Shown here: positions 7,942-43,167 of the stretch, in pieces | Numbering within the stretch: position 1 is the first letter of the stretch | Layout of the letters: each line of letters begins with the position of its first letter | Origin: an uncultured Pelagibacteraceae bacterium | GTDB taxonomy: Bacteria; Pseudomonadota; Alphaproteobacteria; Pelagibacterales; Pelagibacteraceae | Assembly (NCBI GenBank): GCA_902578115.1 | Contig: CACHBR010000001.1 | Location: forward strand, 62,001 to 126,000 | Reading direction: 5' to 3' | DNA: 64,000 nucleotides | Notes under the pieces: generated by a model | Told to the model about the DNA's origin: nothing | What the model saw: only the letters and a program-made list of their open reading frames with translations | Database searches by the model: none | Made by a program: the position numbers and the translations under genes

Positions 7942-8003
7942 TGTTATTATTTTTGTATATAATTAAAGCAAGTTTAAACAAATTTCAATCTTGAGTTGAC
8001 TAA

Positions 8004-8105
8004 ATGATAAATTTTGTAAAAAAATTAGATGATAAAGGCAAGAATTTAGGTTCTTTTAGAGCTGAAGCGAGATTTGGCAAATATTTTTTAAAGTTATGTC
8101 TATAA
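8004..8105 (+). CDS. possible 33-residue small ORF overlapping the pepA start
   Basis: An ATG at 8004 opens a 33-codon frame ending in TAA at 8103-8105, so it overlaps the first ten bases of pepA in another frame. The product is basic (FVKKLDDKGKNLGSFRAEAR) and matches no family I know. It lies in the lptF-pepA divergent spacer. The overlap would permit translational coupling, as a leader peptide would, but no good ribosome-binding site is visible. It may be chance. Confidence 0.2.
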   Translation: MINFVKKLDDKGKNLGSFRAEARFGKYFLKLCL

Positions 8106-25173: not shown

Positions 25174-25245
25174 ACCAAATTTTCAAATTAAGGAAAATTA
25201 AAAATTATTTGTATTTTTTTACCCTGCGTGTTAATCAACATAATA

Positions 25246-26388
25246 ATGTCATTTAAAGAGCTACCATTAATGGAACCTAAAGACGGAACAGTGCTCTTTT
25301 ATCCATATATTTCAAAATCGTCCTTTGCTGAGGTTAAAAAGGTCCTTTCTGGAAGGTGGATTGGACAAGGACCTTTAGTTAACAAATTTGAGAAAAAATT
25401 TAAAAATATGTTTGCTGGTAAAAATCACTGTATAGCTACTGGATCAGGTACAGACGCACTTCATCTGGCATATATTCTCGCAGGACTCAAAAAGGGTGAT
25501 GAAGTTATAGCACCAGTTTATACATGCACTGCTACTAACATTCCTTTTTTATATATGGGTGTAAATATTAAATTTGCAGACATTGATATAGAAACGATGA
25601 ACATTAGTGTAGACAGTGTCAAAAAACTTTTAACAAAAAAAACTAAAGCTATAATTTGTATGCACTATGGTGGCCTACCTTGTGATTTAAATGAGTTACA
25701 AGTATTAGCAAATAAATATAAAATTCCACTTATTGAGGATGCAGCCCATGCTATTGGAGCTACCTATAAAAAAAAATCAATTGGAAGCATAAGTGATTTT
25801 ACAATGTTTAGCTTTCAAGCAATTAAGCATATTACTACTGGGGATGGTGGAATGCTCTGTTTTAAAAATAAAAAGTTAATTGAAAAGGCAAAAAGAATTC
25901 GTTGGTTTGGAATAAGTAGAGAAGATAAACAAAAGGGAATTTGGGAAAATGATATTTCGGAAGTAGGCTATAAATATCAGATGACAGATCTTGGTGCATC
26001 CCTTGGTTATACAGCCTTAAAAGAATTTCAAAAATTATTAAGTCATAGACAAAAAATTTTTAAAATTTATAAAGATATTCTCTCAAGAAACCCTAATATT
26101 TTTTGTGTAGACAAAAATGATGGTAATAGAACTCATGCGTCATGGCTATTCACTTTAATATCTGAAGAAAAGGATAAAATACAAAAAAGACTAAGAGAAA
26201 AAAAAATAGAGTCTAATCAAGTACATTTCAGAAACGATAAGTACTCAATATTTAAAAAGTTTGTAAGAGGTAAATCTTTTCCAAACATGGATTACGTCGA
26301 AGACAAATATCTAGTTTTACCTAATCACCACAAAATAAGTGAAAATAAAGCAAAGTATATTGCTCAAACAATTGATAATTTATTATAA
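25246..26388 (+). CDS. DegT/DnrJ/EryC1-family sugar aminotransferase
   Basis: A 380-residue PLP enzyme that would transaminate a keto-sugar nucleotide. The PLP lysine is present: MFSFQAIKHITTGDGG, Lys about residue 194. Other family segments are ATGSGTDALHLAYIL near residue 65, ICMHYGGLPCDL near residue 138 and IEDAAHAIGA near residue 163. The retained lysine contrasts with the related gene at 34787. A GTG at 25228 and an ATG at 25270 are alternative starts; I chose the ATG at 25246. The gene ends 27 bases before the tRNA-Met. Confidence 0.86.
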   Translation: MSFKELPLMEPKDGTVLFYPYISKSSFAEVKKVLSGRWIGQGPLVNKFEKKFKNMFAGKNHCIATGSGTDALHLAYILAGLKKGDEVIAPVYTCTATNIPFLYMGVNIKFADIDIETMNISVDSVKKLLTKKTKAIICMHYGGLPCDLNELQVLANKYKIPLIEDAAHAIGATYKKKSIGSISDFTMFSFQAIKHITTGDGGMLCFKNKKLIEKAKRIRWFGISREDKQKGIWENDISEVGYKYQMTDLGASLGYTALKEFQKLLSHRQKIFKIYKDILSRNPNIFCVDKNDGNRTHASWLFTLISEEKDKIQKRLREKKIESNQVHFRNDKYSIFKKFVRGKSFPNMDYVEDKYLVLPNHHKISENKAKYIAQTIDNLL

Positions 26389-26415
26389 AGTATTATAAAC
26401 TGTATCATGCTAAAT

Positions 26416-26492
26416 GGCGGGGTAGCTCAGTTGGTTAGAGCGTTGGACTCATAAGCCAAAGGTCGGTGGTTCGACTCCACTCCCCGCTACCA
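26416..26492 (+). tRNA. tRNA-Met (CAT anticodon, elongator type)
   Basis: 77 bases with the CCA encoded. The acceptor stem GGCGGGG pairs with CCCCGCT (a G-U at the first pair), the D-arm is GCTCAGTTGGTTAGAGC, the anticodon loop is CTCATAA (CAT), and the T-arm is GGTGGTTCGACTCCACT. Position 31-39 in the anticodon stem is an A-G mismatch. The start with G1-U72 and the overall sequence match alphaproteobacterial elongator tRNA-Met rather than the initiator, which has an unpaired first position. A glycosyltransferase gene starts four bases after the CCA. Confidence 0.96.
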
Positions 26493-26495
26493 AAA

Positions 26496-27704
26496 ATGAA
26501 AAAAAAAATATTAATAATATTTAAAGCCCCTTGGCATTGGAATGATTTTGTCATAAACAAGTTTAAAAAATCTTACGAAGTAAAACATATTTTTCTCAAC
26601 ACTATAAAAAAAAATTTTTTACAAACTATAAATGAAATAAACAATTTAATTGATAAAGACAAAATCGAAATAGTTATCTTCGATGTTGACTATCAAAAGT
26701 TTATCAATCACTACTTTATAAAAAAAATAAAAAGTACATATAAAATTATGATGACCTGGGATGATTATGAACGACATAACTTTAATATAATTACAGCAAA
26801 CTCTTGCAACTTTGTTATTACAGGATGTCCACTTTCAACATTCAAATATAAAGAGGTAGGTAAAGACTCTTCATTTATGGTTTTAGAGTCTGATGGAAAT
26901 TTTTATAAGGATTTAAAAGTAAAAAAAAATATTGATGTTCTTTTCTTTGGTAAAGTTAATGAAGACAGGAAAGGTTTTTTAGATTATTTAAGGGAAAATA
27001 ACATTAATTTAAAAGTGGTTGGAAATAATTCGGAGAATAGGGTTTCTGATAAAGAACTTGTAAATTTAATTTGTAGATCAAAAATAGTAGTAAATTTCTC
27101 TAAAACAACATGGGGAAAAATAATGAATATTCCTGAAAAAAATGTCTTTTCATATCAATACATGTTTAAGGGAAGAATTGTTCAGGCGGGTCTATGTGGA
27201 ACTGCTTGTATTTCTGAGTATGCCCCTCATCATGATTTACTTTATAATAGTGACGAGTTAATTCAATTTTCAACAAAAGAGGAGTGTTTTAATAAAATAA
27301 GAGATTTATTAGAAAATCCAAATAAACTTGAACATTATCAAAAAAAATTTTCAGAGAAAACAATAGATAGTTATGAGGACGAAAAGACTCTTCTTAATGT
27401 GAAGAATTTTATCCAAAATTTTAATTTGGTAAGAAAAAATGAAGATAAACATAAATTAAACAGATTACCGTACTGGTATATAAGAATTTGTGCAAAGCAA
27501 ATTATTCTTAGAGACTTTAAAATTTATAAAATTTTAAATTCATTAGTTCATTTGAAAGAAATATTTCAATTAATAAAAGGATCTAATATTCTAGTAAAAT
27601 TTTCTGTAATTCTAGAGACTTTAATTAATATTCTATGGTTTTCAACAATTAGACTTTTTAGTAAAAAGGGTGTAGGAAAAAACAGGTATGCAGGAAAATA
27701 TTAG
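26496..27704 (+). CDS. glycosyltransferase (CgeB/DUF3880-like)
   Basis: A 402-residue cytoplasmic protein with a GT-B-like layout. The N-terminus is KKKILIIFKAPWHWNDF, a central segment MMTWDDYERHNF fits the interdomain region, and the C-terminal half has VLFFGKVNEDRKGFLDY and KNVFSYQYMFKGRIVQAGLCGTACISE, followed by DELIQFSTKEECFNKI, which resembles the CgeB-type acceptor pattern. The ATG is only three bases after the tRNA-Met CCA, so its mRNA must be cut out of a tRNA transcript or start leaderless. It overlaps the next gene by 17 bases. Confidence 0.75.
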   Translation: MKKKILIIFKAPWHWNDFVINKFKKSYEVKHIFLNTIKKNFLQTINEINNLIDKDKIEIVIFDVDYQKFINHYFIKKIKSTYKIMMTWDDYERHNFNIITANSCNFVITGCPLSTFKYKEVGKDSSFMVLESDGNFYKDLKVKKNIDVLFFGKVNEDRKGFLDYLRENNINLKVVGNNSENRVSDKELVNLICRSKIVVNFSKTTWGKIMNIPEKNVFSYQYMFKGRIVQAGLCGTACISEYAPHHDLLYNSDELIQFSTKEECFNKIRDLLENPNKLEHYQKKFSEKTIDSYEDEKTLLNVKNFIQNFNLVRKNEDKHKLNRLPYWYIRICAKQIILRDFKIYKILNSLVHLKEIFQLIKGSNILVKFSVILETLINILWFSTIRLFSKKGVGKNRYAGKY

Positions 27705-29388
27705 AGTCGCAGATTTTATTGCTTCTTTTTTAAAAAAAAAGGGAATCAAAAATATATTTATGTTAACAGGATATGGGGCAATGTATTTAAATGATGCAAT
27801 AAAATTATCGGGAATTAAATATTATGCTACAAGAAATGAGGCAACAGCCCCAATAATGGCAGAATCTTATGCAAGATTAAAAAATAAAGTTGGAGTTGCT
27901 TGCGTTACAGCAGGACCAGGAGCAACCAATGCTTTACCTGGCCTCGCCGAAGCATATGTTGACTCTGCACCGATCATGGTCATATCTGGACAAGTTGATT
28001 ATAAACAAACAACGCACAGCACTAAATTAAAAAATATAAGAACATTTGGAACTGCAGAAATCAACATCATTCCAATTGTAAGGCCGCTCACTAAATATGC
28101 TGAAATTATTAAAAATCCAAATGATGTAAAATATGTACTTGAAAAAGCATTTTTCCTTGCAAAAAATGGAAGGCCAGGACCTGTTTGGATTGATGTTCCT
28201 TTAGATGTTCAAAAAAAAGAAATTAATGTAAAAAATTTAAAATCTTTTAAACCAGAGAAAAAAAAAATATTTTTACCAAATATAAGTAGAGATGTTAAAA
28301 AAATTATAAACCTTCTGAAAAAGGCAAAAAAACCAATTTTTGTGGCTGGGAATGGGGTAAAACAAAGTGGAACAATTAAGATACTAAAAAAAATAATTAC
28401 TAAATGTAAAACTCCTTTATTACTTTCTAGATTTGCAAACGATCTTTTGCCTCACACTGACAAATTTGTTATGGGTCAAGCGGGTGTAAAAGGATCTAGA
28501 TATTGCAAAAGCATAATGCGCAATGCAGACTTAGTCATATCATTAGGATGTAGATTTGCTCCTCAATTTGTTGGTCATGATTTTTCAGCTTTTAAAAATG
28601 CAAAGATAGTCTCGGTTGATGTTGAAAAAGACGAATTAAATAAAAAAGGCGTAAAAGTAAATTATAAATTCAATTATGATTTAGAAAACTTTTTACCGAT
28701 TTTAAATAAAATGACAAAAGTTTCTAAATTTCCTAATTACAATAGTTGGATTAATTTTTGCATAAACAACAAAAAGAATAAACCAATTATTCCTGCAAAA
28801 TTAAAACAAAAAAATCCAATTGACTTATATTTTTTTATGCAAAAACTTGGAAATATTGCAAAAAAAAATGATATTTTAGTAACAGACGCTGGGTCAAATT
28901 ATTATATCGGCGGACAAGTCTGGTCTTTTGAAAAAGGAACAATGGAAATCACTTCAGTATCTAATGCAGCTATGGGTCTTTCTGTTCCTCTAGCGATTGG
29001 AGCAGCAGTTGCAGCTCCAAGATCTCGAATTTTAGCAGTGACAGGTGATGGATCACTAGAATTAAATATTCAGGAACTCAAAACAATTTCTCACAACAAG
29101 TTTAATATTAAATTATTTGTTATAAACAATGGTGGTTACGTATCTATGCATAATTGGGCCGATACCTTTTTTAAAGGCAGAAGACTAGATAATCCAGAAG
29201 ATACTGGAACAGGCACACTTAATTTCAAAAATATCGCAAAAGCATTTGATTTAGACCATTATTTAATACATAACTTTAAAGAAATAGATAACGACTTAAG
29301 AAAAATAATGAAAAACAACAAACCTCTTTTTATTGAAGTTGTTACAGATCCTAGACAAAAGATATATGATGCTTTTAAAGATTATTAA
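27688..29388 (+). CDS. acetolactate-synthase-like thiamine-diphosphate enzyme
   Basis: A 566-residue full-length ThDP enzyme of the acetolactate synthase/pyruvate decarboxylase superfamily. The catalytic glutamate is in ATRNEATAPIMAESYARL near residue 52, a central domain follows at about 190-330, and the metal/ThDP motif is VTGDGSLELN near residue 450 ending at NNGGY. In surface-sugar clusters such enzymes (YerE for yersiniose) attach a two-carbon unit from pyruvate to a 4-keto sugar; housekeeping IlvB normally has IlvH next to it, absent here. The start overlaps the upstream glycosyltransferase by 17 bases. Confidence 0.85.
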   Translation: MQENIRVADFIASFLKKKGIKNIFMLTGYGAMYLNDAIKLSGIKYYATRNEATAPIMAESYARLKNKVGVACVTAGPGATNALPGLAEAYVDSAPIMVISGQVDYKQTTHSTKLKNIRTFGTAEINIIPIVRPLTKYAEIIKNPNDVKYVLEKAFFLAKNGRPGPVWIDVPLDVQKKEINVKNLKSFKPEKKKIFLPNISRDVKKIINLLKKAKKPIFVAGNGVKQSGTIKILKKIITKCKTPLLLSRFANDLLPHTDKFVMGQAGVKGSRYCKSIMRNADLVISLGCRFAPQFVGHDFSAFKNAKIVSVDVEKDELNKKGVKVNYKFNYDLENFLPILNKMTKVSKFPNYNSWINFCINNKKNKPIIPAKLKQKNPIDLYFFMQKLGNIAKKNDILVTDAGSNYYIGGQVWSFEKGTMEITSVSNAAMGLSVPLAIGAAVAAPRSRILAVTGDGSLELNIQELKTISHNKFNIKLFVINNGGYVSMHNWADTFFKGRRLDNPEDTGTGTLNFKNIAKAFDLDHYLIHNFKEIDNDLRKIMKNNKPLFIEVVTDPRQKIYDAFKDY

Positions 29389-29393
29389 TTTTC

Positions 29394-30914
29394 ATGAGCC
29401 TAGATATTTTATTTATTCACCCAAACGCATCTAAAAAAATTTACCAAGAACTTAGCAAAGATCATTCAGCATATGAACCACCTATATGGGCAGGAATGTT
29501 AGCGAACCACTGTAGGTCTAAAAATTTTAAAACAGCAATTTTGGATTGTGAAGTTAGTAAACTAGATTATGAAAAAAGTGCCAAAGAAATAAATAATCTT
29601 AAACCGAAAATAGCCTGTTTCGTAGTCTATGGGCAACAACCCTCAGCTTCATCTCAAAATATGGAAGGAGCTACAAAAACTTCTATTGAATTAAAAAAAT
29701 TAAATAATGAAATTAAAACTTTATTTGTTGGAGGCCATGTTGCTGCCTTACCTAAAGAAACTTTACTAAAAGAATCTAGCATTGATTTCGTTGCATTGAA
29801 TGAAGGCGTATACTCAATATCTAATTTATTAAGTGCTGATAATTTAAATGAAGAAAGTTATCTAAAAAAAATAAAAGGAATAGGTTTTAGAAATAATGAA
29901 AACCAAATTATTTTAAATGAACCAGAAACAGTTGTTCCAAAAAAACTTTTAGAAGATGATTTACCTGGTATAGCTTGGGATTTGTTACCTAACTTATCCG
30001 AATATAGAACTGCAGGATGGCATTCTTGGTCAAATAATTCCGACAAACAACCATTCGCAGCCTTATATACAAGTCTGGGGTGTCCATATAAATGTTCATT
30101 TTGTATGATTAATATAATTAATAGAACTAATAATGATGAGAACGTTTCATCTCAAAACTCAAATATTTTTAGATGGTGGTCACCAGAATTTATAATTAAA
30201 CAGTTCGATTACATTGCAAAGCAAGGCGTCAAAAATGTTAAAATTGCAGATGAACTTTTTGTGCTAAATCCTAATCATTTTATGAAGATATGTGATTTAT
30301 TAATTGAACGAAATTATGGTTTTAATATTTGGGCCTATTCAAGAATTGATACTTGTAAGCCGCAATATTTAGAAAAATTAAAAAAAGCCGGAGTTAATTG
30401 GCTAGGTCTTGGAATAGAAAATCCAGACACCGTTTTAAGAAAAGAGGTTCATAAAGATTCATATAAAGAAGTTAAAATCATAGATGTTATAAATGGAATT
30501 AGAGAATCTGGAATAAATGTCGCTGCTAACTATATCTTTGGCTTACCAGAGGATACAGAGAAAAGTTTAAAATTTACATATGACTTTGCTGAAGAAACAA
30601 ATTCAGAGATGGTAAACTTTTATTCTGCAATGGCATATCCTGGTAGCCCTCTTTTTTTAGAGGCTCGGAAAAATGGAATTGAACTTCCATCAACCTATTC
30701 AGGATACAGCCAACACTCGTACGATACACTAAATTTGTCAACCACAAAACTTTCTGCTGGTCAGATACTAAAATTTAGAGACGAAGCTTGGATGAAATAT
30801 CATACTAATGAGAAATACTTAAATTTAATAAAAGAAAAATTTGGTCACAATGCAGTAGATAATATTAAAAGCACTACTAGAATTAAACTAAAAAGAAAAC
30901 TACTGGGAGACTAA
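29394..30914 (+). CDS. B12-binding-domain radical SAM protein
   Basis: A 506-residue protein with an N-terminal B12-binding-like fold (residues about 1-140: DILFIHPNA, FVGGHVAALPKE) and a central radical SAM domain with the CX3CX2C cluster at Cys230, Cys234 and Cys237 in LGCPYKCSFC. The segment YIFGLPEDTEKS near residue 380 belongs to this family. Related enzymes methylate or rearrange carbon skeletons in sugars, lipids and antibiotics. The reaction is unknown. It stands five bases after the ALS-like gene and one base before the alpha-1 gene, so it is surely cotranscribed with the ThDP genes. Confidence 0.85.
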   Translation: MSLDILFIHPNASKKIYQELSKDHSAYEPPIWAGMLANHCRSKNFKTAILDCEVSKLDYEKSAKEINNLKPKIACFVVYGQQPSASSQNMEGATKTSIELKKLNNEIKTLFVGGHVAALPKETLLKESSIDFVALNEGVYSISNLLSADNLNEESYLKKIKGIGFRNNENQIILNEPETVVPKKLLEDDLPGIAWDLLPNLSEYRTAGWHSWSNNSDKQPFAALYTSLGCPYKCSFCMINIINRTNNDENVSSQNSNIFRWWSPEFIIKQFDYIAKQGVKNVKIADELFVLNPNHFMKICDLLIERNYGFNIWAYSRIDTCKPQYLEKLKKAGVNWLGLGIENPDTVLRKEVHKDSYKEVKIIDVINGIRESGINVAANYIFGLPEDTEKSLKFTYDFAEETNSEMVNFYSAMAYPGSPLFLEARKNGIELPSTYSGYSQHSYDTLNLSTTKLSAGQILKFRDEAWMKYHTNEKYLNLIKEKFGHNAVDNIKSTTRIKLKRKLLGD

Positions 30915-30918
30915 ATTG
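30904..30918 (+). promoter_or_regulatory. Shine-Dalgarno site and TTG start of alpha-1
   Basis: GGGAG at 30904-30908 lies seven bases upstream of TTG at 30916-30918. There is no other in-frame start for about 95 codons, so TTG is the real start of the alpha-1 gene. Confidence 0.75.
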
Positions 30919-31755
30919 TCATACAAAAATTATCGTTTAAAAACATTTGAAAAGGCTTCTTTGTGCAGAAATTTTGAAAATGAGGTCTTTAAAAGAGTTA
31001 ATGAAAAAATTATCAATTTTCCAGTTTATCTATCAGCTGGACAAGAATATGTTCCATCATCAATAGCGCAGATAGTAAAAGATAAAAAACAAAAACCTCT
31101 TATCTTTGGCCAGCATAGAGGTCATTCAATATACCTTTCTTTTGGAGGAAATATTATAGAACTAATTGACGAACTTTTAGGAAAAAAAACTGGATGCACG
31201 AGAGGTATGGGCGGATCATTATCAATAAATTCAAACAAAATTAACATGTTTGGTCACGAGGGATTAATGGGAAGTAATGCATGTATGGGTGTTGGAGCAT
31301 GTTTTTCATCGGCAAAACCTACTATCGTCTTTTTAGGCGATGCATCTGTTGAGGAAGACTATGTTTTAGCCTCTTTAAGTTGGGCAGCTAAAAAGGAATT
31401 ACCAATACTTTTTGTAGTTGAGGATAATAATTATGCTGTATTAACCAAAAAGAAGGACAGAAGAGATTGGAAAGCAAAAGATGTAGCAAAAGCATTTAAA
31501 TTAGAGTCTTATGATATTGATGACCAACCCAAAAATATTTTTTCAGTACTAAAAAAAAACTTATTTAAAAAACCAATTTTTATAAATGTAAACACAAAGA
31601 GACTTTTCTGGCATTCAGGTGCAGGTGTAGATGAAGAAGTAAAAGGAGATAGATTAACAGTAGAAAAAAAATTTTTAGGAAAAAAAGCAGAAAAAATTCA
31701 CAGAAATATAAAAAAAAAGATTGAAAATTTATGGAAACAACGCTTAGAGAAGTAA
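30916..31755 (+). CDS. split ThDP dehydrogenase/transketolase-like alpha subunit 1
   Basis: A 279-residue E1-alpha-like protein. It shows FGQHRGHSIYLSFGG near residue 56, GCTRGMGGSLSI near residue 93, the metal/ThDP motif FLGDASVEED near residue 135 (GDG class) and EDNNYAVL near residue 162. Pyruvate dehydrogenase E1 alpha is about 350 residues and ends with phosphorylation loops not seen here. It starts with TTG behind a GGGAG site. The beta-1 gene overlaps its last 25 bases. No lipoyl E2 or E3 gene follows, so a simple oxo-acid dehydrogenase is unlikely; a carboligase role is inferred. Confidence 0.83.
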   Translation: MSYKNYRLKTFEKASLCRNFENEVFKRVNEKIINFPVYLSAGQEYVPSSIAQIVKDKKQKPLIFGQHRGHSIYLSFGGNIIELIDELLGKKTGCTRGMGGSLSINSNKINMFGHEGLMGSNACMGVGACFSSAKPTIVFLGDASVEEDYVLASLSWAAKKELPILFVVEDNNYAVLTKKKDRRDWKAKDVAKAFKLESYDIDDQPKNIFSVLKKNLFKKPIFINVNTKRLFWHSGAGVDEEVKGDRLTVEKKFLGKKAEKIHRNIKKKIENLWKQRLEK

Positions 31756-32648
31756 TAAAACAAATAACTTTTAAACACTTAAAAAAATTTAAAGGTCAGG
31801 TTTTCGGGCAAAACCTAACAGGTGTTGGTTGGGTAGCTGGAACCTTACCAAAACTTTATGAGAAAGATGGTGTGATAGAGTTACCAATGGCTGACGTTGC
31901 TAACGGAGGAATGGTTACAGGTGCAGCATTAGTTGGGAGGAGACCATTCTATATAATAAGATATCAAGGATACAACTGGTTAAATTGTATTTTTATTGTT
32001 AATTACGCATGTAAGTCTAAAGAAATTTGGAACAAACCCGCACCAATGTTTATAAGAGGCCTCTCAAGTGAAGGTGGCTTAGGCCCGGTTTCTACATCAA
32101 GCCATATATCAATCTTCTACAAAATGCCAGGGATCAAAATTTATTCTCCGATGACCAAAAATGAATACACTAAAACTTATAAAAAATTTATGAAGTCAGA
32201 TGATGTTTTTTATGTATCAGAACATAGAAAAAGTTATGAAAATAAAATAGAGTTGAAAAATTCTTTAAAAAAGAATCTTGATATAATTTTAATGCCAATA
32301 TCAGTAACTCGTTTCGAGGCAGAAAAAGCAAAAAATTATTTAAATAAAAACGGTTATAAGGTAGGGATAATTCATTTATATGAATTAAAACCCTTTGTTT
32401 TAAAAAAAAAATGGATAAGCATGATCAAAAGCTCTAAATATGGAGTTCTTATGACCGATAATGATTATGTTGATGGTATAATTAGAACTTTAGCTCATAA
32501 AATAAATGAGCAGACCAATAAAAAAGTTTATGTTTTGGGATTAAAAGATAAGTCCGCCGGGTATACACGTGAGACAAGTAATTTTCCACCATCAGCTTTA
32601 GAAATAATAACTAAAATTAAAAAAATAAAAGCAAAAAAAAGATTATAA
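31731..32648 (+). CDS. split ThDP enzyme beta subunit 1
   Basis: A 305-residue E1-beta/transketolase pyrimidine-domain protein. It contains VIELPMADVANGGMVTGAALVG near residue 45 (cited by its core LPMADVANGG), where E1 beta proteins have a glutamate that activates ThDP; here the place is Asp. It continues with RGLSSEGGLGPVSTSSH near residue 105, and a C-terminal transketolase-type domain from about residue 180 (ISVTRFEAEKAKNYL, VYVLGLKDKSAGY). It overlaps alpha-1 by 25 bases and is followed by alpha-2 after one base. Confidence 0.8.
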   Translation: METTLREVIKQITFKHLKKFKGQVFGQNLTGVGWVAGTLPKLYEKDGVIELPMADVANGGMVTGAALVGRRPFYIIRYQGYNWLNCIFIVNYACKSKEIWNKPAPMFIRGLSSEGGLGPVSTSSHISIFYKMPGIKIYSPMTKNEYTKTYKKFMKSDDVFYVSEHRKSYENKIELKNSLKKNLDIILMPISVTRFEAEKAKNYLNKNGYKVGIIHLYELKPFVLKKKWISMIKSSKYGVLMTDNDYVDGIIRTLAHKINEQTNKKVYVLGLKDKSAGYTRETSNFPPSALEIITKIKKIKAKKRL

Positions 32649-32649
32649 A

Positions 32650-33252
32650 ATGAATAAAAAGGATTTAATAAACTTTGAGGAGGAAATTGCATCTTTATTT
32701 AATCAAGGTAAAATAAGAGCTCCAGTCCATCTTTATCATGGTAATGAAGATAAAATAATAGAAATTTTTAAAAAAATTAACAAGCAAGATTGGGTTTTTT
32801 GTAGTTGGAGATCACATTATCAATGTCTTCTAAAAGGGGTTCCAAAAGAGAAAGTTAAAGATGAAATTTTATCAGGCAGATCTATATCTTTGTGTTTTCC
32901 TGAGTACAAAATATATTCATCAGCATTAGTTGGAGGTTCTATTCCTATAGCAGTAGGTACAGCAATGTCTTTGAAGCTTAAAAAAGAAAAAAGTACAATG
33001 GTTTATTGTTTTATGGGAGAGATGACATCTGAAACAGGTATAGCCCATGAGTGTATAAAATACAGTAGAAATTTTGATTTACCAATTCATTTTGTTATAG
33101 AGGATAATTCATTGTCTGTTTGCACAGACACTAGAAAAACATGGCAGCAAAAAAAATTAAGTTTTGAGGGTCCTAATGATAAATTTGTCACTTTTTACAG
33201 CTATAAGTCTAAGTGGCCACATGCTGGTGCAGGGAAAAGGATAGAATTTTAA
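32650..33252 (+). CDS. split ThDP enzyme alpha subunit 2 (short)
   Basis: A 200-residue E1-alpha-like protein, shorter than alpha-1 and than usual. Family signs are WVFCSWRSHYQCLLKGVP near residue 43, ALVGGSIPIAVGTAMSL near residue 95, and the metal/ThDP region FMGEMTSETG near residue 119, where the usual GDG is GEM, ending at EDNSLSV. It ends soon after that motif, so the C-terminal portion of alpha-1 is missing. It is followed by beta-2 after three bases. Confidence 0.75.
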   Translation: MNKKDLINFEEEIASLFNQGKIRAPVHLYHGNEDKIIEIFKKINKQDWVFCSWRSHYQCLLKGVPKEKVKDEILSGRSISLCFPEYKIYSSALVGGSIPIAVGTAMSLKLKKEKSTMVYCFMGEMTSETGIAHECIKYSRNFDLPIHFVIEDNSLSVCTDTRKTWQQKKLSFEGPNDKFVTFYSYKSKWPHAGAGKRIEF

Positions 33253-33255
33253 TTT

Positions 33256-33792
33256 ATGAAATACGCCGATGAATTAACTAAATCAATGATTTATCTAAGT
33301 AAAGACCCAAGAACTATATTCCTTGGACAAGCAGTTGCATACCCAGGCACTGCAATGACAAACACTTTGAAAAGTATACCAAGAAACAAACTCTATGAAT
33401 TACCTGTTGCAGAAGAAATGCAATTAGGAATAAGTAATGGATTAGCTTTAAATGGACATATTCCTGTAAGTATATTTCCAAGATGGAATTTTCTTTTACT
33501 TGCTACTAATCAATTAGTAAGCCATTTAGATAAATTTAGTATAATGTCACAAGGCAAATTTAAAACCAAAGTAATTATAAGAACATCAATTGGTTCACAA
33601 AGGCCTTTACATCCTCAACATCAACACATTGGAGACTTTACAGAAGCATTTAAAAAAGTTTTAAGTACAGTAGAAATCATTAGACTTGAGAAACCATCAG
33701 ATATATTTCCATCATACAAAAAAGCAATTGAGAGAAAAGATGGGAAAAGTACAATTCTAGTTGAGTATGGAGATTATTATAGCGAAAAGTAA
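33256..33792 (+). CDS. split ThDP enzyme beta subunit 2, pyrimidine domain only
   Basis: A 178-residue E1-beta-like protein. The segment LYELPVAEEMQLGISNGLAL near residue 48 has the glutamate that beta-1 lacks, and IIRTSIGSQRPLHPQHQH near residue 115 follows the E1-beta pattern. The C-terminal transketolase domain found in beta-1 is absent. Its stop is followed three bases later by the heptose kinase gene. It could pair with alpha-2, or share domains with the first pair. Confidence 0.75.
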   Translation: MKYADELTKSMIYLSKDPRTIFLGQAVAYPGTAMTNTLKSIPRNKLYELPVAEEMQLGISNGLALNGHIPVSIFPRWNFLLLATNQLVSHLDKFSIMSQGKFKTKVIIRTSIGSQRPLHPQHQHIGDFTEAFKKVLSTVEIIRLEKPSDIFPSYKKAIERKDGKSTILVEYGDYYSEK

Positions 33793-33795
33793 AAT

Positions 33796-34797
33796 ATGAT
33801 TATTACAAAAACACCGTATCGAATATCATTTTTCGGAGGTGGTAGTGACTATCCCTCATGGTATAAAAAAAATGGAGGTGCTGTATTATCTTCTACAATT
33901 GATAAGCATATTTATATTACTTGTCGTTTCTCACCAGGTTATTTTAAACAAAAATATAGAATAGTATGGAGAAAAATTGAGAACGTAAAAAAAGTTAACG
34001 AAATAAATCACAAAGCTGTAAGATATTTACTTAAACATCTAAATATTAAAGATGGATTAGAAATTCATTATTATGGTGATTTACCTGCAAGAAGTGGAAT
34101 GGGTTCTAGCTCATCTTTTACTGTTGGATTGATGCAGGCTTTATGCAAAATTAAAAATATTAAATTAACTAAAGCTGAGTTAGCAAAAAATAGTATTAAT
34201 TTTGAACAAAATATAATGGGAGAAGTGGTGGGCTCACAAGATCAGACCTCAGCTTCTTATGGTGGTTTTAATAAGATTCTATTTAATAAAAATAATTCTA
34301 TTAATGTTAAAAGAGTTTCTTCAAAAAAAAATATTAAAAAATTAAATGATAATCTTATTTTAATTTACACAGGTATTAATAGAACTGCTCATAAAATAGC
34401 AAATCAATACGTAAGTAAACTTACAACAGTTAAGAAAGAACACATTAGTAAAATATTAAATTATGTTAAAGAAGGTGAACATATTTTAAAACATGGCAAT
34501 ATCGATGATTTTGGAAGACTTTTAAATGATGCTTGGATGGAAAAAAAGGCTCTTAGTAGTTTAATTACAAATACAAAAATAAATGATATTTATGATGATG
34601 CAATTAGATGTGGAGCTTTAGGAGGTAAATTGTTAGGTGCTGGTGGAGGTGGTTTTTTACTAATGTATATGAGAAAAGCTGAAAGAAAAAAATTTTTAAA
34701 AAAAAATTACAAACTAATTAATATTCCATTTAAATTCACATCAACAGGAAGTGAAATAATTTTTGATAAATTAAAAAGGATAAAAAATGAAGATTAA
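33796..34797 (+). CDS. hddA: GHMP kinase, D-glycero-D-manno-heptose 7-phosphate kinase-like
   Basis: A 333-residue GHMP kinase. The N-terminus ITKTPYRISFFGGGSDYPSWY and AVLSSTIDKHIYITC are typical of HddA-type kinases, and the ATP loop is LPARSGMGSSSSFTVG near residue 99; GGKLLGAGGGGFLLMY near residue 280 is motif 3. By family it phosphorylates heptose 7-phosphate at C1, one step of the GDP-heptose route. It would work with the nucleotidyltransferase-phosphatase fusion at 37399. GmhA (isomerase) is not in the window. Fucose or other sugar kinase activity is an alternative. Confidence 0.8.
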   Translation: MIITKTPYRISFFGGGSDYPSWYKKNGGAVLSSTIDKHIYITCRFSPGYFKQKYRIVWRKIENVKKVNEINHKAVRYLLKHLNIKDGLEIHYYGDLPARSGMGSSSSFTVGLMQALCKIKNIKLTKAELAKNSINFEQNIMGEVVGSQDQTSASYGGFNKILFNKNNSINVKRVSSKKNIKKLNDNLILIYTGINRTAHKIANQYVSKLTTVKKEHISKILNYVKEGEHILKHGNIDDFGRLLNDAWMEKKALSSLITNTKINDIYDDAIRCGALGGKLLGAGGGGFLLMYMRKAERKKFLKKNYKLINIPFKFTSTGSEIIFDKLKRIKNED

Positions 34798-35971
34798 TCA
34801 TCCACTAATGCACAATAATTTTATTAAATCCGATATGGATTCTGTTAGAAAATTAATTAAAAATAAGAATTTAATTCTTACACAATCAAAAAATGTTATT
34901 GAGTTTGAAAAAAAATGGTCAAAATGGCTTGGTGTAAAATTTAGTGTTTTTGTTAATTCTGGATCTTCAGCTAACTTATTAAGTATGTTAATATTAAAAA
35001 GTTTATCTCTTAAAAAGAAAGAGATTATTGTTCCTACACTAACTTGGGTTTCAGATATAAATTCTGTAATAATGGCAGGTTTTAAACCAGTATTTGTCGA
35101 TATTGATCCAAGAACACTTTCTATGAATCAAGACCAGGTTTTAAATAAAATAAACAAAAATACACTTGCTGTTTTTGTAACACACGTACAAGGATTTAAT
35201 AGTTTATCAGAAAAACTTTTAACAAAAATTAAAAGAAAAAAGATTATTCTTGTTGAAGATGTGTGTGAGTCACATGGGGCTAAATATAAAAACAAAAATT
35301 TGGGAACATTTGGCTTAATATCCAACTTTTCTTTTTATTATGCACATCATATGTCTACTATTGAAGGCGGGATGATCTGCACAAATAATAAAAAAATTTA
35401 TGAATTAGCAAGAATTTTTAGGTCTCACGGTATGGCACGAGAGGCAAAAAATAAGAAATTTGAAAAGCAAATGATAAAAAAATATCCGAAATTATCTCCC
35501 CAATTTATTTTTTTACATCCAACTTTTAATTTTAGAAATAATGAAATTGGAGCTGTAATTGGTATAAACCAGCTCAAAAGACTCGATAAAAATAATAGGG
35601 CAAGAACAAAAAATTTAAAACTTTTCTTAAATTTATTAGACCCATCTAAGTATAGAGTTGATTATGAAGTCGATGGTAGTTCGAATTACGCATTTCCAGT
35701 TGTTTTTAAAAACAAAAGTTTTAAGTTTAGAGATCGTTTTGAGTTGACATTAAAAAGATATAATATTGAATTTAGAAGAGGAAATGCTGGTGGTGGCAAT
35801 CAGCTTAGACAACCATATTTAAAAACTTACTTGAAAAAAATTAATTTAAAGAAATTTCCAGAAGTTGATCATGTTCATTTCTTTGGGTATTATATTGGGA
35901 ACTATCCAAGTCTAAAGGCATCTAGAATAAAAAAAATTTGTTCAATATTAAATAATATAAGTATTAAATAA
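34787..35971 (+). CDS. DegT-family sugar 3-dehydratase (ColD-like)
   Basis: A 394-residue DegT-fold PLP enzyme in which the usual PLP lysine is replaced by histidine: FSFYYAHHMSTIEGGM, with His about residue 188. This change is the hallmark of ColD (GDP-4-keto-6-deoxy-D-mannose 3-dehydratase, where the residue is His188) and of the E1 dehydrase of 3,6-dideoxyhexose synthesis, which remove the C3 hydroxyl rather than transaminate. Other segments are VNSGSSANLLSMLIL and VEDVCESHGAKYKN. It overlaps hddA by 11 bases. No E3-type ferredoxin reductase is nearby, which favours the ColD mechanism. Confidence 0.85.
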   Translation: MKINHPLMHNNFIKSDMDSVRKLIKNKNLILTQSKNVIEFEKKWSKWLGVKFSVFVNSGSSANLLSMLILKSLSLKKKEIIVPTLTWVSDINSVIMAGFKPVFVDIDPRTLSMNQDQVLNKINKNTLAVFVTHVQGFNSLSEKLLTKIKRKKIILVEDVCESHGAKYKNKNLGTFGLISNFSFYYAHHMSTIEGGMICTNNKKIYELARIFRSHGMAREAKNKKFEKQMIKKYPKLSPQFIFLHPTFNFRNNEIGAVIGINQLKRLDKNNRARTKNLKLFLNLLDPSKYRVDYEVDGSSNYAFPVVFKNKSFKFRDRFELTLKRYNIEFRRGNAGGGNQLRQPYLKTYLKKINLKKFPEVDHVHFFGYYIGNYPSLKASRIKKICSILNNISIK

Positions 35972-35976
35972 AACAA

Positions 35977-36465
35977 ATGGAGAAATTAAAAGTAATAAAA
36001 AATTCAACCTTTAAAGATAATAGAGGTTTTTATTGGACTACATGGAAAAAAGGAACACTTAAAAATTTTAAATTTAACCATGATAAATTCTCCATATCAA
36101 AAAAAAAAGTTCTTAGAGGATTTCATTGTGATTTTAAATCATGGAAATTAGTAACATGTATATTTGGTAAAGTTTTTTTAGTTGTTGTAAATATGAAAAA
36201 AAATTCAAAAAATTATTTAAAACATAAAACTTGGATTTTATCTCATGAAAAACCCAAGCTAATTTTAATCCCACCCCATTTTGCTAACGCACATTTATGT
36301 TTATCTAATAAATGCGTTTTTCACTATAAATGGTCTTACAAGGGGAAATATGTGGACTCAAATAAACAAAATAGTTACAGATGGGACGACCCAAAATTAA
36401 AAATTAAATGGCCTATAAAAAAACCAATATTAAGTAAAAGGGATAGAACTTCAAAGTATTTATAA
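35977..36465 (+). CDS. RmlC-like sugar nucleotide 3,5-epimerase (cupin)
   Basis: A 162-residue cupin related to dTDP-4-keto-6-deoxyglucose 3,5-epimerase. The catalytic histidine region is VLRGFHCDF (RmlC has LRGLHYQ), followed by FANAHLCLSNKCVFHY, which corresponds to the FAHGF and catalytic-tyrosine region. It is about 20 residues shorter than RmlC. In GDP-heptose pathways of Campylobacter a similar cupin epimerises the 4-keto heptose. It stands five bases after the ColD-like gene. Confidence 0.78.
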   Translation: MEKLKVIKNSTFKDNRGFYWTTWKKGTLKNFKFNHDKFSISKKKVLRGFHCDFKSWKLVTCIFGKVFLVVVNMKKNSKNYLKHKTWILSHEKPKLILIPPHFANAHLCLSNKCVFHYKWSYKGKYVDSNKQNSYRWDDPKLKIKWPIKKPILSKRDRTSKYL

Positions 36466-36466
36466 A

Positions 36467-37402
36467 ATGAGTAAAATTTTAATAACTGGTGGAGGAGGAT
36501 ATGTTGGATCAATGCTATCTACAGCTCTTGTTAATTTAGGCCATGAAGTAACGGTTTTAGATTTGATGAAATATGATAGAGGATCATTAAATCATCTTTA
36601 TTATTTTAAAAATTTTAAATTAATAAAAAAAGATGTTCGAGATAAAAAATTATTAAAATCTTTACTAAAAAAAAATGAATTTATAATACCATTAGCTGCG
36701 TTAGTAGGCGCTCCTTTATGTGATAAATACAAGAAAGATGCCGTATCAGTAAATCACCATTCAATTAAAAATCTTGTATCATTGAGTTCAAAAAAAAATA
36801 AAATAATATTTTTAACTACTAATTCCGGATATGGAGTTGGAGAAAAAAATAAGTTTTGTGATGAAAACAGTCCTTTAAACCCAATATCACTTTACGGTAG
36901 AACAAAATGCGACGCAGAGGAAGAGGTAAAAAAATCTAAAAATTTTATTTGCTTCAGATTAGCTACAGTTTTTGGATACAGTTATAGAATGAGAACAGAT
37001 TTATTAGTAAATAACTTTGTTTATAAATCAGTAAAAACAAAAAAACTAAAAATATTTGAACCTCATTTTAGAAGAAATTTTATCCATATTAAGGATGTAG
37101 TTTTAGGAATAATTTACGCTATAAAAAATTTTAATAAATTAAAATCAAATATTTATAATTTGGGACTTTCATCTGCAAACATAAGTAAACTAATGTTAGC
37201 AAAAAAAATAAAGAAAAAAATGAATAAACTTCAAATTAAAATTATTACAAACAGAAAGGATCCAGATAAAAGAGATTATTTTGTAAGTAATAAGAAAATA
37301 GAAAAAAAAGGTTTCAAAGCAAAAGTGTCTTTAGATCAAGGTGTCGAAGAATTGATAGATTTATTCAATACAGATAATAAAAAAATAATAAATAATTATT
37401 AA
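36467..37402 (+). CDS. NAD-dependent epimerase/dehydratase (extended SDR)
   Basis: A 311-residue extended SDR. The Rossmann motif is ILITGGGGYVGSMLS (residues 4-18), NSGYGVGEKN gives the Ser region, and the catalytic pair is SLYGRTK (Tyr-x3-Lys) near residue 143. RRNFIHIKDVVLGI near residue 203 is the usual substrate-binding segment. It is likely to oxidise or reduce C4 (or epimerise) of the activated sugar. It begins one base after the RmlC-like stop; its stop overlaps the opposing gene by 4 bases. Confidence 0.83.
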   Translation: MSKILITGGGGYVGSMLSTALVNLGHEVTVLDLMKYDRGSLNHLYYFKNFKLIKKDVRDKKLLKSLLKKNEFIIPLAALVGAPLCDKYKKDAVSVNHHSIKNLVSLSSKKNKIIFLTTNSGYGVGEKNKFCDENSPLNPISLYGRTKCDAEEEVKKSKNFICFRLATVFGYSYRMRTDLLVNNFVYKSVKTKKLKIFEPHFRRNFIHIKDVVLGIIYAIKNFNKLKSNIYNLGLSSANISKLMLAKKIKKKMNKLQIKIITNRKDPDKRDYFVSNKKIEKKGFKAKVSLDQGVEELIDLFNTDNKKIINNY

Positions 37403-38586
37403 TTTTTATTGGTAATTCTTTTTATTTGACTATAAAAATTTTTTTCTGCAAATTCAAAATATAATTTACTTTTATTAGCACAAATTTTATCAGAAACTTT
37501 ATCTCCGATCATAAAACTTTTATTATGTTTTATATGCCATTTTTTTTTAATTTGCTGTATCATCAGATTTCCTGGTTTTCTTAATTCAGTAACTTTTCTA
37601 TATTTTCTTAACTTAGCTTTGGGATGATATGGACAATAATTTATATCATCAAAATATATATCTTTTTTTTGAAGTTTTTCTTTAATCTGATTTTGTAATT
37701 TATAAAACTCATTTATAGAAAAAATACCTTTTCCAATTCCAGCTTGGTTAGTGATAATAAAAATATAATATTTTTTTTTAATTAATAATTTTAATCCCTT
37801 GATAACACCAGGTCTAAATTTAAAGTCCTTAAATTTATGAACATATCCAGTGTCATAATTTATAACACCATCTCTATCTAAGAATGCTGCTGGTTTTGAA
37901 CAACTGTTAATTAACAATTTTTCTGCTCTTTTAAAGTTTTTTGGTGTTCCAATATCTAAAAAAAAATTATTAGTTATTAGTCCCGAAATTTTTTTTTCAC
38001 TGATTAAATTAGGTAAAATTTCATCCTCTAAAGAAATATTTTTATTTTGGATAAACTTAAAGAACTCTTTTTTAAAAAAATATACTCCACCATTCATATA
38101 TTTGCTAAATTTTTGAAAAACGATTTTATTATGCTTAAGACTCATAGCTGATAATTTTTTGTTAGACTTATATGATTTATTTTTTACCAAAGCTAAAGAT
38201 CCCAAGCTATCTTTGCTACATGATTTAATTAATTTATTTAAATCAACATCAAGAAAAGTGTCTCCATTTATCAAAATAAAATCGTTTAAATTTCTTTTCT
38301 TTAAGCTATTTAAGGCGCCTGCCGTACCCATCGGTTTTTTTTCATTAAGACAATTTATAGATATGCAATTATAATAACTTTTGTGAAATTTGCTAATTAT
38401 CTCCTGCGATTTATATCCTGTTAGTATAAAAATATTTTTAAAGTGATATTTACAGTAATTTTGTATTATATATTCTAAGAATGGTTTTTTGTTAAAAATA
38501 GCCATTGGCTTAGCTTTCTTATTCAAAAGAGATTTAATCCTAGATCCTTTACCTCCAGCTAAAACAACTAAATCTAATGAGTACAT
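37399..38586 (-). CDS. fused heptose-1-phosphate nucleotidyltransferase and heptose bisphosphate phosphatase (HddC-GmhB)
   Basis: A 395-residue two-domain protein. Residues 1-225 are a sugar-1-phosphate nucleotidyltransferase with VVLAGGKGSRIKSL at 7-20 and DFILINGDTFLDVD near residue 102. Residues 232-395 are a HAD phosphatase with AAFLDRDGVINYDTGYVH (Asp237 and Asp239) and a Lys-containing TNQAGIGKG. GmhB normally binds zinc through CPxH and a later CxC; here CPYH (318-321) is present but the second pair is replaced by charged residues. The fusion links the phosphatase and nucleotidyl-transfer steps of the activated heptose route. Confidence 0.82.
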   Translation of the reverse strand: MYSLDLVVLAGGKGSRIKSLLNKKAKPMAIFNKKPFLEYIIQNYCKYHFKNIFILTGYKSQEIISKFHKSYYNCISINCLNEKKPMGTAGALNSLKKRNLNDFILINGDTFLDVDLNKLIKSCSKDSLGSLALVKNKSYKSNKKLSAMSLKHNKIVFQKFSKYMNGGVYFFKKEFFKFIQNKNISLEDEILPNLISEKKISGLITNNFFLDIGTPKNFKRAEKLLINSCSKPAAFLDRDGVINYDTGYVHKFKDFKFRPGVIKGLKLLIKKKYYIFIITNQAGIGKGIFSINEFYKLQNQIKEKLQKKDIYFDDINYCPYHPKAKLRKYRKVTELRKPGNLMIQQIKKKWHIKHNKSFMIGDKVSDKICANKSKLYFEFAEKNFYSQIKRITNKN

Positions 38587-38654
38587 TTTGATATTCTTTG
38601 GTTACTTTTTTTACCATTTTAAGATATTATTAAATAGTCTTTTATTCAAATATT

Positions 38655-39590
38655 ATGAAATTAATTTCTTTTGTTTTTTCATTTAGAAACGAAGAGAAAA
38701 ATTTAAAGAATCTTGTTGATAGAGTTGATAAAGCAGTTAAAAAAACTGAAAATTGGAATTATGAGTTAATATTTGTAAATGATGACTCAACTGATAATTC
38801 TGAAAAAATATTGTTAGATTTACAAAAAAAATTGCCTATAAAAATTATTAATATGTCGAGAAGATTTGGAACTAATCCATGTGTTCTTGCTGGTTTTGAA
38901 AATTGCTCTGGTGATTGTATCATCTATATGGACTCTGATCTTCAAGATCCACCAGAATTAATTACTGAATTAATCAAACAACATGAAAAAGGTTTTGATA
39001 TTGTTCACACAAAGAGAACAAAAAGGTTAGGAGAGCCAAGATCTAAATTATTTTTTACAAATTTAGCTTATTCAATAATTGATAAGTTATCAGATATAAA
39101 TTTAGAAAAAGATGTAGGAGACTTTAAATTAATATCTAAAAGAGCTTTAAATAAAATTTTAGAACAAAAGGAATATAATCCATATATTCGAGGTCTATCC
39201 GTATGGGTTGGTTTCAAGCAAACATATGTTGACTACGTAAGAGAAGCAAGAGAAGCTGGTGAGTCAAAGTTTTCACTTTTTGCAGAAGGACCGGTATCTC
39301 AGTTTATTAGGGGTGTAACTAGCTACTCACTCAAGCCACTTTACCTAGGCGTGTTATTAGGTTTTTTTGCTTTTATATTTTCAATAATTTTAATTCTCTA
39401 TGCTCTTTACGCCAAAGTAACTGGAATTGCTGTACCTGGAACAACAGGGATATTAATTGTAATATCTTTTTTTTCTGGAGCCTTATTATCTACTATAGGA
39501 ATTATGGGAATTTACTTAGCAAGAATTTTTGAGCAAACAAAAGGAAGAACAAGATACGTTATAAAAGATATTAAAGACTATAAAAAATAA
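38655..39590 (+). CDS. family 2 glycosyltransferase with two C-terminal membrane segments (GtrB/ArnC-like)
   Basis: A 311-residue GT2 enzyme. The catalytic DXD region is IIYMDSDLQDPPELI near residue 92, VDDSTDNS appears as FVNDDSTDNS near residue 42, and two membrane helices lie near residues 225-250 and 262-290. This is the layout of enzymes that transfer a sugar from a nucleotide to polyprenyl phosphate (GtrB, ArnC, DPM1). The lipid-linked sugar would then be used by the GT-C protein encoded at 39598. It is divergent from the HddC-GmhB gene. Confidence 0.88.
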   Translation: MKLISFVFSFRNEEKNLKNLVDRVDKAVKKTENWNYELIFVNDDSTDNSEKILLDLQKKLPIKIINMSRRFGTNPCVLAGFENCSGDCIIYMDSDLQDPPELITELIKQHEKGFDIVHTKRTKRLGEPRSKLFFTNLAYSIIDKLSDINLEKDVGDFKLISKRALNKILEQKEYNPYIRGLSVWVGFKQTYVDYVREAREAGESKFSLFAEGPVSQFIRGVTSYSLKPLYLGVLLGFFAFIFSIILILYALYAKVTGIAVPGTTGILIVISFFSGALLSTIGIMGIYLARIFEQTKGRTRYVIKDIKDYKK

Positions 39591-39597
39591 CTTTAAA

Positions 39598-42173: not shown

Positions 42174-42232
42174 ATACAAATTTTTAAAAGAAATGATCTA
42201 ATATATTTAATTTGTAAAAGAATTACTTACTA

Positions 42233-42249
42233 AAATCAATTGTTGATTT
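42233..42249. repeat. short hairpin in the rmlB-epimerase divergent spacer
   Basis: AAATCAA (42233-42239) and TTGATTT (42243-42249) are perfect seven-base arms around a three-base loop. It lies in the 103-base spacer between two divergent sugar genes. It may be an operator or a chance AT palindrome. Nothing else is visible in the spacer. Confidence 0.25.
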
Positions 42250-42276
42250 AATCAATTTTTAAAATATAAATCTTGA

Positions 42277-43164: not shown

Positions 43165-43167
43165 TAT

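Follow-up and report, generated by a model that had tools for sequence, protein, structure and literature searches.

We have analysed a window of 64,000 nucleotides from an uncultured Pelagibacteraceae (SAR11) bacterium (contig CACHBR010000001.1, positions 62,001 to 126,000), in which a 12 kb block of genes at positions 26496-38586 suggests that surface sugars of an unusual and probably branched kind are made by a pathway not yet described. As judged from the open reading frame (ORF) coordinates, the block consists of eleven genes on the plus strand and one convergent gene on the minus strand (Table 1). The ten junctions between the plus-strand genes are overlaps or gaps of at most 5 bases, and the final convergent pair overlaps by 4 bases. 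An earlier note on this DNA had described enzymes dependent on thiamine diphosphate (ThDP), a radical S-adenosylmethionine (SAM) protein and GDP-heptose genes in one tight block, and this is borne out by the ORFs and by the Pfam and NCBIfam profiles, which find every protein type named there in its place. A glycosyltransferase-like gene that the note did not list opens the block; it also flanks the block in SAR11 relatives, e. g. at the loci L034, L036-L038 and L040 (L and G numbers are our labels for loci and genomes). When the block was sought in other genomes, as the note had proposed, the same gene order was found in the related SAR11 genome L034, and L035 matches as far as the end of its contig. 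Since the order is repeated in SAR11 relatives and the core of the block across phyla, the arrangement is not due to chance. None of the NCBIfam equivalog models listed for ten block proteins or for the short-chain dehydrogenase/reductase (SDR) reached its cut-off (the best 25 of 54 matches were viewed for the acetolactate synthase (ALS)-like protein, and the best 25 of 35 for the HddC-GmhB fusion). Thus, the names used here denote kinship, and function is unproven.

Table 1. Features of the block and its left edge, with positions in the window and the basis of each assignment.
Feature	Position	Strand	Basis and remarks
tRNA-Met(CAT)	26416..26492	+	ARAGORN, Rfam; left edge of the block
Glycosyltransferase-like protein (Glyco_trans_1_2)	26496..27704	+	Pfam; first gene of the block
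ALS: YerE/JanthE-type ThDP carboligase	27688..29388	+	Best PDB match 8rph; tree
B12-binding-domain radical SAM protein	29394..30914	+	Pfam; best fold AprD4
alpha1: E1-alpha-type ThDP subunit	30916..31755	+	Pfam E1_dh; alignment A4
beta1: E1-beta-type ThDP subunit, Asp55 at catalytic Glu position	31731..32648	+	Pfam; aligned with 3duf
alpha2: minimal E1-alpha, 200 amino acids	32650..33252	+	Pfam; AlphaFold2 model
beta2: minimal E1-beta, 178 amino acids, PYR domain only, Glu53 kept	33256..33792	+	Pfam, Transket_pyr only
HddA-like heptose-7-phosphate kinase (GHMP)	33796..34797	+	NCBIfam best NF049969, 142 bits, cut-off 600
ColD/RfbH-like pyridoxal phosphate (PLP) C3-dehydratase (DegT family)	34787..35971	+	Best PDB match 2gms
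RmlC-like C3/C5 epimerase	35977..36465	+	Pfam dTDP_sugar_isom
Cj1427-type GDP-heptose C4-dehydrogenase (SDR)	36467..37402	+	Best PDB match 6vo6
HddC-GmhB fusion (guanylyltransferase + 7-phosphatase)	37399..38586	-	NCBIfam

The HddA-like, HddC and GmhB domains together indicate a GDP-heptose route by kinship, with scores below the equivalog cut-offs of NCBIfam. The SDR matches the structure 6vo6, which we take to be the GDP-heptose C4-dehydrogenase Cj1427, at 2e-87, and the next structure only at 1e-16. These relationships support the assignment of GDP-heptose genes in the earlier note and narrow its choice of a heptose or a hexose product to the heptose. The 3-deoxygenation that had been proposed gains support as well: the ColD-like protein is closest in the PDB to the ColD-type structure 2gms (6e-49), and a His-His pair is present at the site of the PLP lysine in all 23 aligned rows of the family, two RfbH proteins included, so that loss of the C3 oxygen is the predicted reaction. 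In vitro, a mixture of Cj1427 and the C3-dehydratase of Campylobacter jejuni HS:5 yields GDP-3-deoxy-4-keto-heptose (PMC10680097, PMC10440746), and C4-reductases can then complete GDP-3-deoxy-heptoses (PMC10680097). The GDP-heptose pathways of C. jejuni thus use the same types of C4-dehydrogenase and C3-dehydratase as the block, but the two were brought together in the test tube whereas the block pairs them in nature; the words "thiamine" and "branched" are absent from the main text of PMC10680097. By analogy, HddA, HddC-GmhB, the SDR and the ColD-type dehydratase should yield GDP-3-deoxy-4-keto-heptose.

Several lines of evidence place the ALS-like protein with the YerE/JanthE-type enzymes, apart from the acetolactate synthases, as the earlier note had suspected, and transfer of a unit from a 2-oxo acid to a 4-keto sugar nucleotide is its predicted reaction. 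Glu51, by its position presumably the ThDP-activating glutamate, and the GDG...NN motif are invariant in seven of seven rows. In a maximum-likelihood tree of 37 rows, for which long-branch warnings were issued, 26 rows (the block protein, SAR11 proteins and YerE-like enzymes) are split with a support of 100/100 from 11 rows on the side of acetohydroxyacid synthase (AHAS); the five of these 11 that were checked, the one from the same genome included, are all over the TIGR00118 cut-off. This separate acetolactate synthase of the genome scores 754 bits against a cut-off of 538, as compared to 334 bits for the block protein. The best PDB match of the latter is 8rph (5e-83, versus 1e-67 for AHAS I), the structure of JanthE, a YerE-like ketone carboligase (PMC12188165). 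Among 299 genomes of the phylum, its 19 best relatives outside its own genome (30-36% identity) score above the acetolactate synthases. Ten of the 18 loci fetched for these relatives have a DegT-family gene within reach that matches ColD at 25-31% identity. The two loci that were checked encode a glucose-1-phosphate cytidylyltransferase, a CDP-glucose 4,6-dehydratase and RfbH, all over cut-off, and after these the ALS relative; this is the yersiniose-type order ddhA-ddhB-RfbH-ALS relative. The earlier note had named ThDP homologues outside sugar clusters as a finding that would speak against it; for the ALS-like enzyme, a sugar context was found for this part of the loci. In SAR11 clusters without a ColD match, an ALS relative (53-54%) accompanies a divergent alpha2/beta2 pair (about 50%) at L049 and L051.

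The two split pairs, alpha1/beta1 and alpha2/beta2, are related to the E1 components of 2-oxo acid dehydrogenases. For both beta subunits, sequence comparison indicates kinship with E1-beta, and alpha1 lies on one side of a branch with a support of 100/99. The AlphaFold2 model of alpha2 (predicted local distance difference test, pLDDT, 91.5) has the E1p alpha subunit 1ni4 as its best fold (Z 19.7, 2.5 A over 193 residues), as compared to a Z of 15.2 for the split transketolase 6yak. In beta2, the catalytic Glu53 is invariant in 26 of 26 rows, and the C-terminal transketolase domain found in E1-beta proteins of known complexes is missing, with a median length of 178 amino acids in 70 members. 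In beta1, the Pfam domain Transket_pyr is over the cut-off and Transketolase_C under it. Neither E2 nor E3 was found among the genes of the block with Pfam and NCBIfam. The missing C-terminal domain of beta2 and the lack of E2 and E3 in the block make a dehydrogenase complex unlikely. An H[AS]G[AS]G motif is frequent in alpha1 and alpha2 (lacking in one of nine and three of 14 rows, respectively) and absent from 15 other E1-alpha proteins. We had considered that alpha1 and alpha2 form one sugar-specific group of E1-alpha proteins, but the branch that unites them has weak support (86/72) and long branches are involved, and the idea was dropped. Alpha1-type proteins are not confined to SAR11: ten of the 299 phylum genomes (the own genome counted) match the alpha1 profile A4 at E <=1e-30, G687 and G557 strongly; in G687, the alpha1-type gene has a beta1-like gene, SDR genes and a gene of the DegT family nearby. 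On plasmids, the best 25 of 327 matches of alpha1 and the best 25 of 286 of alpha2 are all E1-type proteins, with identities of about 32% at most, and the same holds for all four phage matches of alpha1; all plasmid and phage records are below 60%. The four best plasmid rows for alpha1 are RenH of a renieramycin symbiont. No match to the radical SAM protein was found in phages.

The radical SAM protein has its CxxxCxxC cysteines (C230, C234 and C237) invariant in 38 rows, and its B12-binding domain is over the Pfam gathering threshold. The best fold of its model (pLDDT 90.8) is AprD4 (6fd2; Z 30.3, 416 residues, 3.0 A), followed by MgmA (27.5), CysS, OxsB and TsrM (Z 26.1-27.5), and AprD4 is also its best sequence match in the PDB. 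Even this nearest fold, a radical SAM diol dehydratase (PMC5461906), shares only 19% identity with the block protein. Two observations on neighbouring genes may be added. At L041, a BtuB-like TonB receptor (2917-4782, genome G008) is located near alpha2/beta2. In the ALS-free cluster L038, a DJ-1/PfpI-family protein and a cupin resembling mannose-6-phosphate isomerase are encoded between the radical SAM gene and alpha1 (6896-8105), and L040 has a similar gap at this place.

The distribution of alpha2 revealed how far the core of the block extends. With 18 SAR11 alpha2 sequences as the query, 170 relatives were detected in our genome collection, and the best 80 were examined; many of the records are metagenome-assembled or single-cell genomes, and organism names are used as given in the records. 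The loci belong to SAR11, SAR116, SAR86, Betaproteobacteria, Nitrospira, Verrucomicrobia, Planctomycetes and cyanobacteria, and there are also acidobacterial and bacteroidetes records and one actinobacterial record. Under identity thresholds, beta2 was present at 79 of the 80 loci, hddA at 72, ColD at 69, the radical SAM gene at 62, the Cj1427-like SDR at 60 and hddC at 59. All seven genes occur together at 46 of the 80 loci; among the 43 full-length loci, the number is 32. Thus, hddA, alpha2, beta2, ColD, the radical SAM gene, the SDR and hddC form a pan-phylum core. With respect to alpha2, homologues outside sugar clusters are rare: 78 of the 80 loci carry at least one of hddA, ColD, the radical SAM gene, the SDR and hddC. 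Among the core genes, the one that follows alpha2/beta2 is ColD at 51 and hddA at 16 of the 80 loci, and the pair is thus embedded in sugar genes. Within these loci, ALS was found in three and alpha1/beta1 in seven cases, exclusively in SAR11. In contrast to the single combined pathway of the earlier note, the block is divisible, and ALS and alpha1/beta1 join the core set in SAR11 only.

Some companions of the core differ between the groups. The gene gmhA is nearby at 19 of the 80 alpha2 loci, two of them from SAR11. An enzyme of the L-2-hydroxyglutarate oxidase family is encoded in or near 11 of 73 alpha2 clusters (L091, L104, L120, L124, L130, L132, L134, L147, L148, L149 and L152; the one of L091 was checked and is over the NCBIfam cut-off); this would fit a Cj1427-type SDR, as the oxidase would recycle the by-product formed by the SDR from 2-oxoglutarate. 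The RmlC-like epimerase is present at eight of the 16 SAR11 loci at 55% identity or more, but at none of the 64 others, two of which have a match at 30-31%. A GDP-fucose-synthase-like protein (SDRx) is encoded at 40 of the 64 loci outside SAR11 and at none of the 16 SAR11 loci (at least 40% identity to cluster members), and no ortholog is present in the window. The C4-reductases of the heptose pathways of C. jejuni belong to the GDP-fucose-synthase family. Outside SAR11, SDRx may be a substitute for the epimerase, a reductase acting on the branch, or a C4 reductase, with the branch then placed elsewhere. In the yersiniose A gene set, DdhA-DdhB-DdhC-YerE-YerF, the last position invited a comparison with SDRx; an equation of SDRx with YerF was rejected, as one protein at the YerF position is without real similarity and the other has general SDR similarity only.

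Which ThDP enzyme accompanies the radical SAM protein varies within SAR11. Among 397 genomes of the SAR11 family, 64 have a match to alpha2 at E <=1e-3. In only 25 of these does the identity reach 45%; the remaining matches, which include alpha1, are E1 proteins not exceeding 39%. The radical SAM subfamily (A7) is present in 32 of the 397 genomes. Near the radical SAM gene, 15 of the 32 have alpha2/beta2, seven of these together with alpha1/beta1; five have alpha1/beta1 alone (one of these has only a beta1 match, of 40%, where its contig begins), and eight have a split transketolase, with three pairs checked by Pfam. In the other four, no partner is in reach; three of them have the radical SAM gene at a contig end, and in the remaining one, G008, alpha2/beta2 is encoded on a different contig. 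Sixteen genomes have both alpha2 and the radical SAM gene, 16 only the latter, nine only alpha2 and 356 neither (Fisher p 6e-14, relatedness not controlled). The combinations vary in detail: Both modules, alpha1/beta1 and alpha2/beta2, stand in tandem in the window and at L034-L036; the set ALS-radical SAM-alpha1-beta1 without alpha2/beta2 is seen at L064, L066 and L067, and L044-L046 and L048 have alpha2/beta2 without ALS or alpha1/beta1. The split transketolase pair adjoins the radical SAM gene, usually between this gene and rmlC or the SDR, and it can, as judged from the genes, replace the E1-type pair in SAR11. Split transketolase genes are also found at the SAR11 loci L065 and L068-L071, with no radical SAM gene within the fetched stretch. 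YerE-type enzymes, split E1-type enzymes (alphaKADH2) and split transketolases are the three classes of ketone-branching ThDP enzymes that have been described or proposed (PMC12247030), and homologues of all three occur with one GDP-heptose core. That the partner varies suggests that the cassette chooses the carbon unit to be put on a common keto-heptose.

On balance, we consider it probable, if by a small measure, that the enzymes of the block convert D-glycero-manno-heptose 7-phosphate into a GDP-3-deoxy-heptose that carries a branch and is destined for a polysaccharide of the cell surface. The Cj1427-type SDR would oxidise C4 of GDP-heptose, and the ColD-type enzyme would remove the oxygen at C3 to give GDP-3-deoxy-4-keto-heptose, with a possible inversion at C5 (or C3) by the RmlC-like protein. 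The ThDP enzymes would then attach a carbon unit at the keto carbon, which is probably C4, and so create a tertiary alcohol: the YerE-type ALS, alpha1/beta1 and alpha2/beta2 might provide an acyl unit from a 2-oxo acid, and the split transketolase of the sister clusters a ketol unit. With the branch most likely at C4, a C4-reductase would be unnecessary in the SAR11 blocks. Finally, the radical SAM protein with its B12 domain may modify the sugar or the branch further, by C-methylation or by an AprD4-like dehydration.

A number of observations weigh against this pathway. Three ThDP enzymes in a single block are without explanation, and beta1 has an Asp at the position of the catalytic Glu of E1-beta in 13 of 13 rows. 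At L135 and L145, none of the five core sugar genes is over threshold; L135 has Wzt-type export genes, and no neighbour was recognised at L145. The radical SAM gene is missing from the assembly in nine of the 25 alpha2-bearing SAR11 genomes, and seven of these nine have a divergent alpha2 (about 50% identity). Moreover, the exchanged partners are not at one exact position, as the E1-type pairs precede hddA in SAR11, and a transketolase near heptose genes could supply sedoheptulose 7-phosphate instead. No gmhA over cut-off was found in the own assembly, which is 82% complete, and no L-2-hydroxyglutarate oxidase over cut-off in the 12 SAR11 carriers of the radical SAM gene. Where SDRx is present outside SAR11, a C4 reduction would leave no C4 ketone, which argues in part against C4 branching in those organisms.

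The core might instead lead to a linear product. As in Campylobacter, C4 oxidation, C3 deoxygenation, epimerisation and C4 reduction would give GDP-3-deoxy-heptose or its L-epimer, and the ThDP and radical SAM enzymes would make a separate acyl or keto-acid substituent that is put on elsewhere. The occurrence of SDRx at half of the 80 alpha2 loci agrees with this idea, as do the C4-reductases that finish GDP-3-deoxy-heptoses in vitro. We nevertheless regard it as unlikely: SDRx is confined to loci outside SAR11, alpha2/beta2 is embedded among the sugar genes, the same sugar core is accompanied by different ThDP types, and the annotated neighbour families do not look acyl- or amide-forming (five of the 19 families have no annotation). 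Even less probable, in our opinion, is an action of the ThDP pairs before GDP activation, in which they would make or lengthen the sugar phosphate, e. g. by a transketolase-like supply of sedoheptulose 7-phosphate or an octulose phosphate; the product would then be a linear or higher deoxy sugar without the branch at C4. The split transketolases of eight SAR11 genomes, the adjacency of alpha2 and hddA at many loci and the nearby gmhA genes would be in line with such an early step; however, both pairs are kin of E1, the fold of alpha2 is closer to E1p than to a split transketolase, and the ALS is of the YerE type, a class that acts on keto sugar nucleotides (PMC12247030). A chance location of an ordinary acetolactate synthase and a 2-oxoacid dehydrogenase within a hypervariable island would explain family names drawn from general hidden Markov models, but this reading is highly improbable, and we reject it in view of the separate synthase of the genome, the split in the tree and the sugar genes around alpha2.

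The cofactor of the radical SAM protein concerns the last step of the branched-heptose pathway and is compatible with it either way. The protein might work without cobalamin as an AprD4-like sugar diol dehydratase and thus bring about a second deoxygenation, a possibility that deserves attention even though we lean to the other side. AprD4 is its closest relative both in fold and in sequence, and among the 12 SAR11 genomes that carry the gene, no metH was over the cut-off (two had weak partial matches), and no PduO-type adenosyltransferase was found. On the other hand, the B12-binding domain is over the gathering threshold, and CysS, OxsB and TsrM, which are cobalamin enzymes, reach scores close to that of AprD4. 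BtuB-like receptors are commoner in carriers of the gene (13 of 32) than in other genomes (58 of 365; Fisher p 0.0014, relatedness not controlled), and six of the 12 SAR11 carriers have such a receptor, below cut-off. Since the association is weak and relatedness uncontrolled, we do not claim B12 use from this co-occurrence.

The pathway can be compared to known systems for branched sugars. For yersiniose A of Yersinia pseudotuberculosis O:6 and erwiniose (ErwE), a PLP C3-dehydratase, shared with the block, provides a 3-deoxy-4-keto sugar nucleotide, to which an ALS-fold ThDP enzyme adds a unit derived from a 2-oxo acid, as proposed here (PMC12247030). These systems act on a CDP-hexose, whereas the block would use a GDP-heptose, and the available text of PMC12247030 names no E1-type pair or radical SAM enzyme for them. 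The split E1-type enzymes of the alphaKADH2 class (AviB1/AviB2, Pau11/Pau12, KbDH-alpha/beta) have been proposed or shown to add C2 units to keto sugars in the formation of antibiotic octoses (PMC4425429, PMC12247030). Pau11 and Pau12 have 325 and 345 amino acids and belong to a TDP-hexose pathway (PMC4425429); in contrast, alpha2 and beta2 have only 200 and 178 amino acids, lack the C-terminal domain of the beta subunit and are encoded beside GDP-heptose genes. For the split transketolases of miharamycin and amipurimycin, 13 candidate sequences have been counted, which all come from streptomycetes and have yet to be characterised in vitro (PMC12247030); unlike these, the SAR11 enzymes adjoin a GDP-heptose core. 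Among the open-licence papers found, no title describes the gene set of the block. The novelty would lie in a ThDP-branched sugar pathway built on GDP-heptose. The interpretation given in the earlier note is thus partly supported: the idea of a ThDP-branched deoxyheptose is supported in outline, as a prediction from genes alone, and the pan-phylum core, the minimal E1-type pair, the radical SAM protein as a regular partner and the exchangeable ThDP cassette go beyond it.

The block is part of a wider sugar island (25228-43695 of the window), with a PseC-like aminotransferase gene and the tRNA-Met gene at one end and two genes at the other that look like apt and mtnP. An RmlB over cut-off is encoded within the island (41142-42179), and the sugar genes close to this apt/mtnP end differ in related genomes. 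We also considered whether the window corresponds to the canonical O-chain island of SAR11, which is located between the 23S and 5S genes (PMC11898729), but no rRNA was found in the window with Rfam. The words thiamine, acetolactate, radical SAM and heptose are absent from the main text of that paper.

It is tempting to speculate that the genes constitute a horizontally spread platform in which a constant core, an exchangeable ThDP cassette and a finishing radical SAM step generate an undescribed family of surface sugars from SAR11 to Nitrospira and Verrucomicrobia; we put this forward tentatively, as somewhat short of an even chance. To our knowledge, GDP-3-deoxy-4-keto-heptose is otherwise known solely as an in vitro product, and the block offers a natural setting for it. 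With three types of ThDP enzymes for ketone branching next to the same sugar core, donor choice can readily be compared, and alpha2/beta2 is a compact two-subunit ThDP enzyme, far smaller than E1. Surface glycans govern the contact with phages and grazers, and our analysis predicts unusual sugars on abundant bacteria of the ocean and of freshwater.

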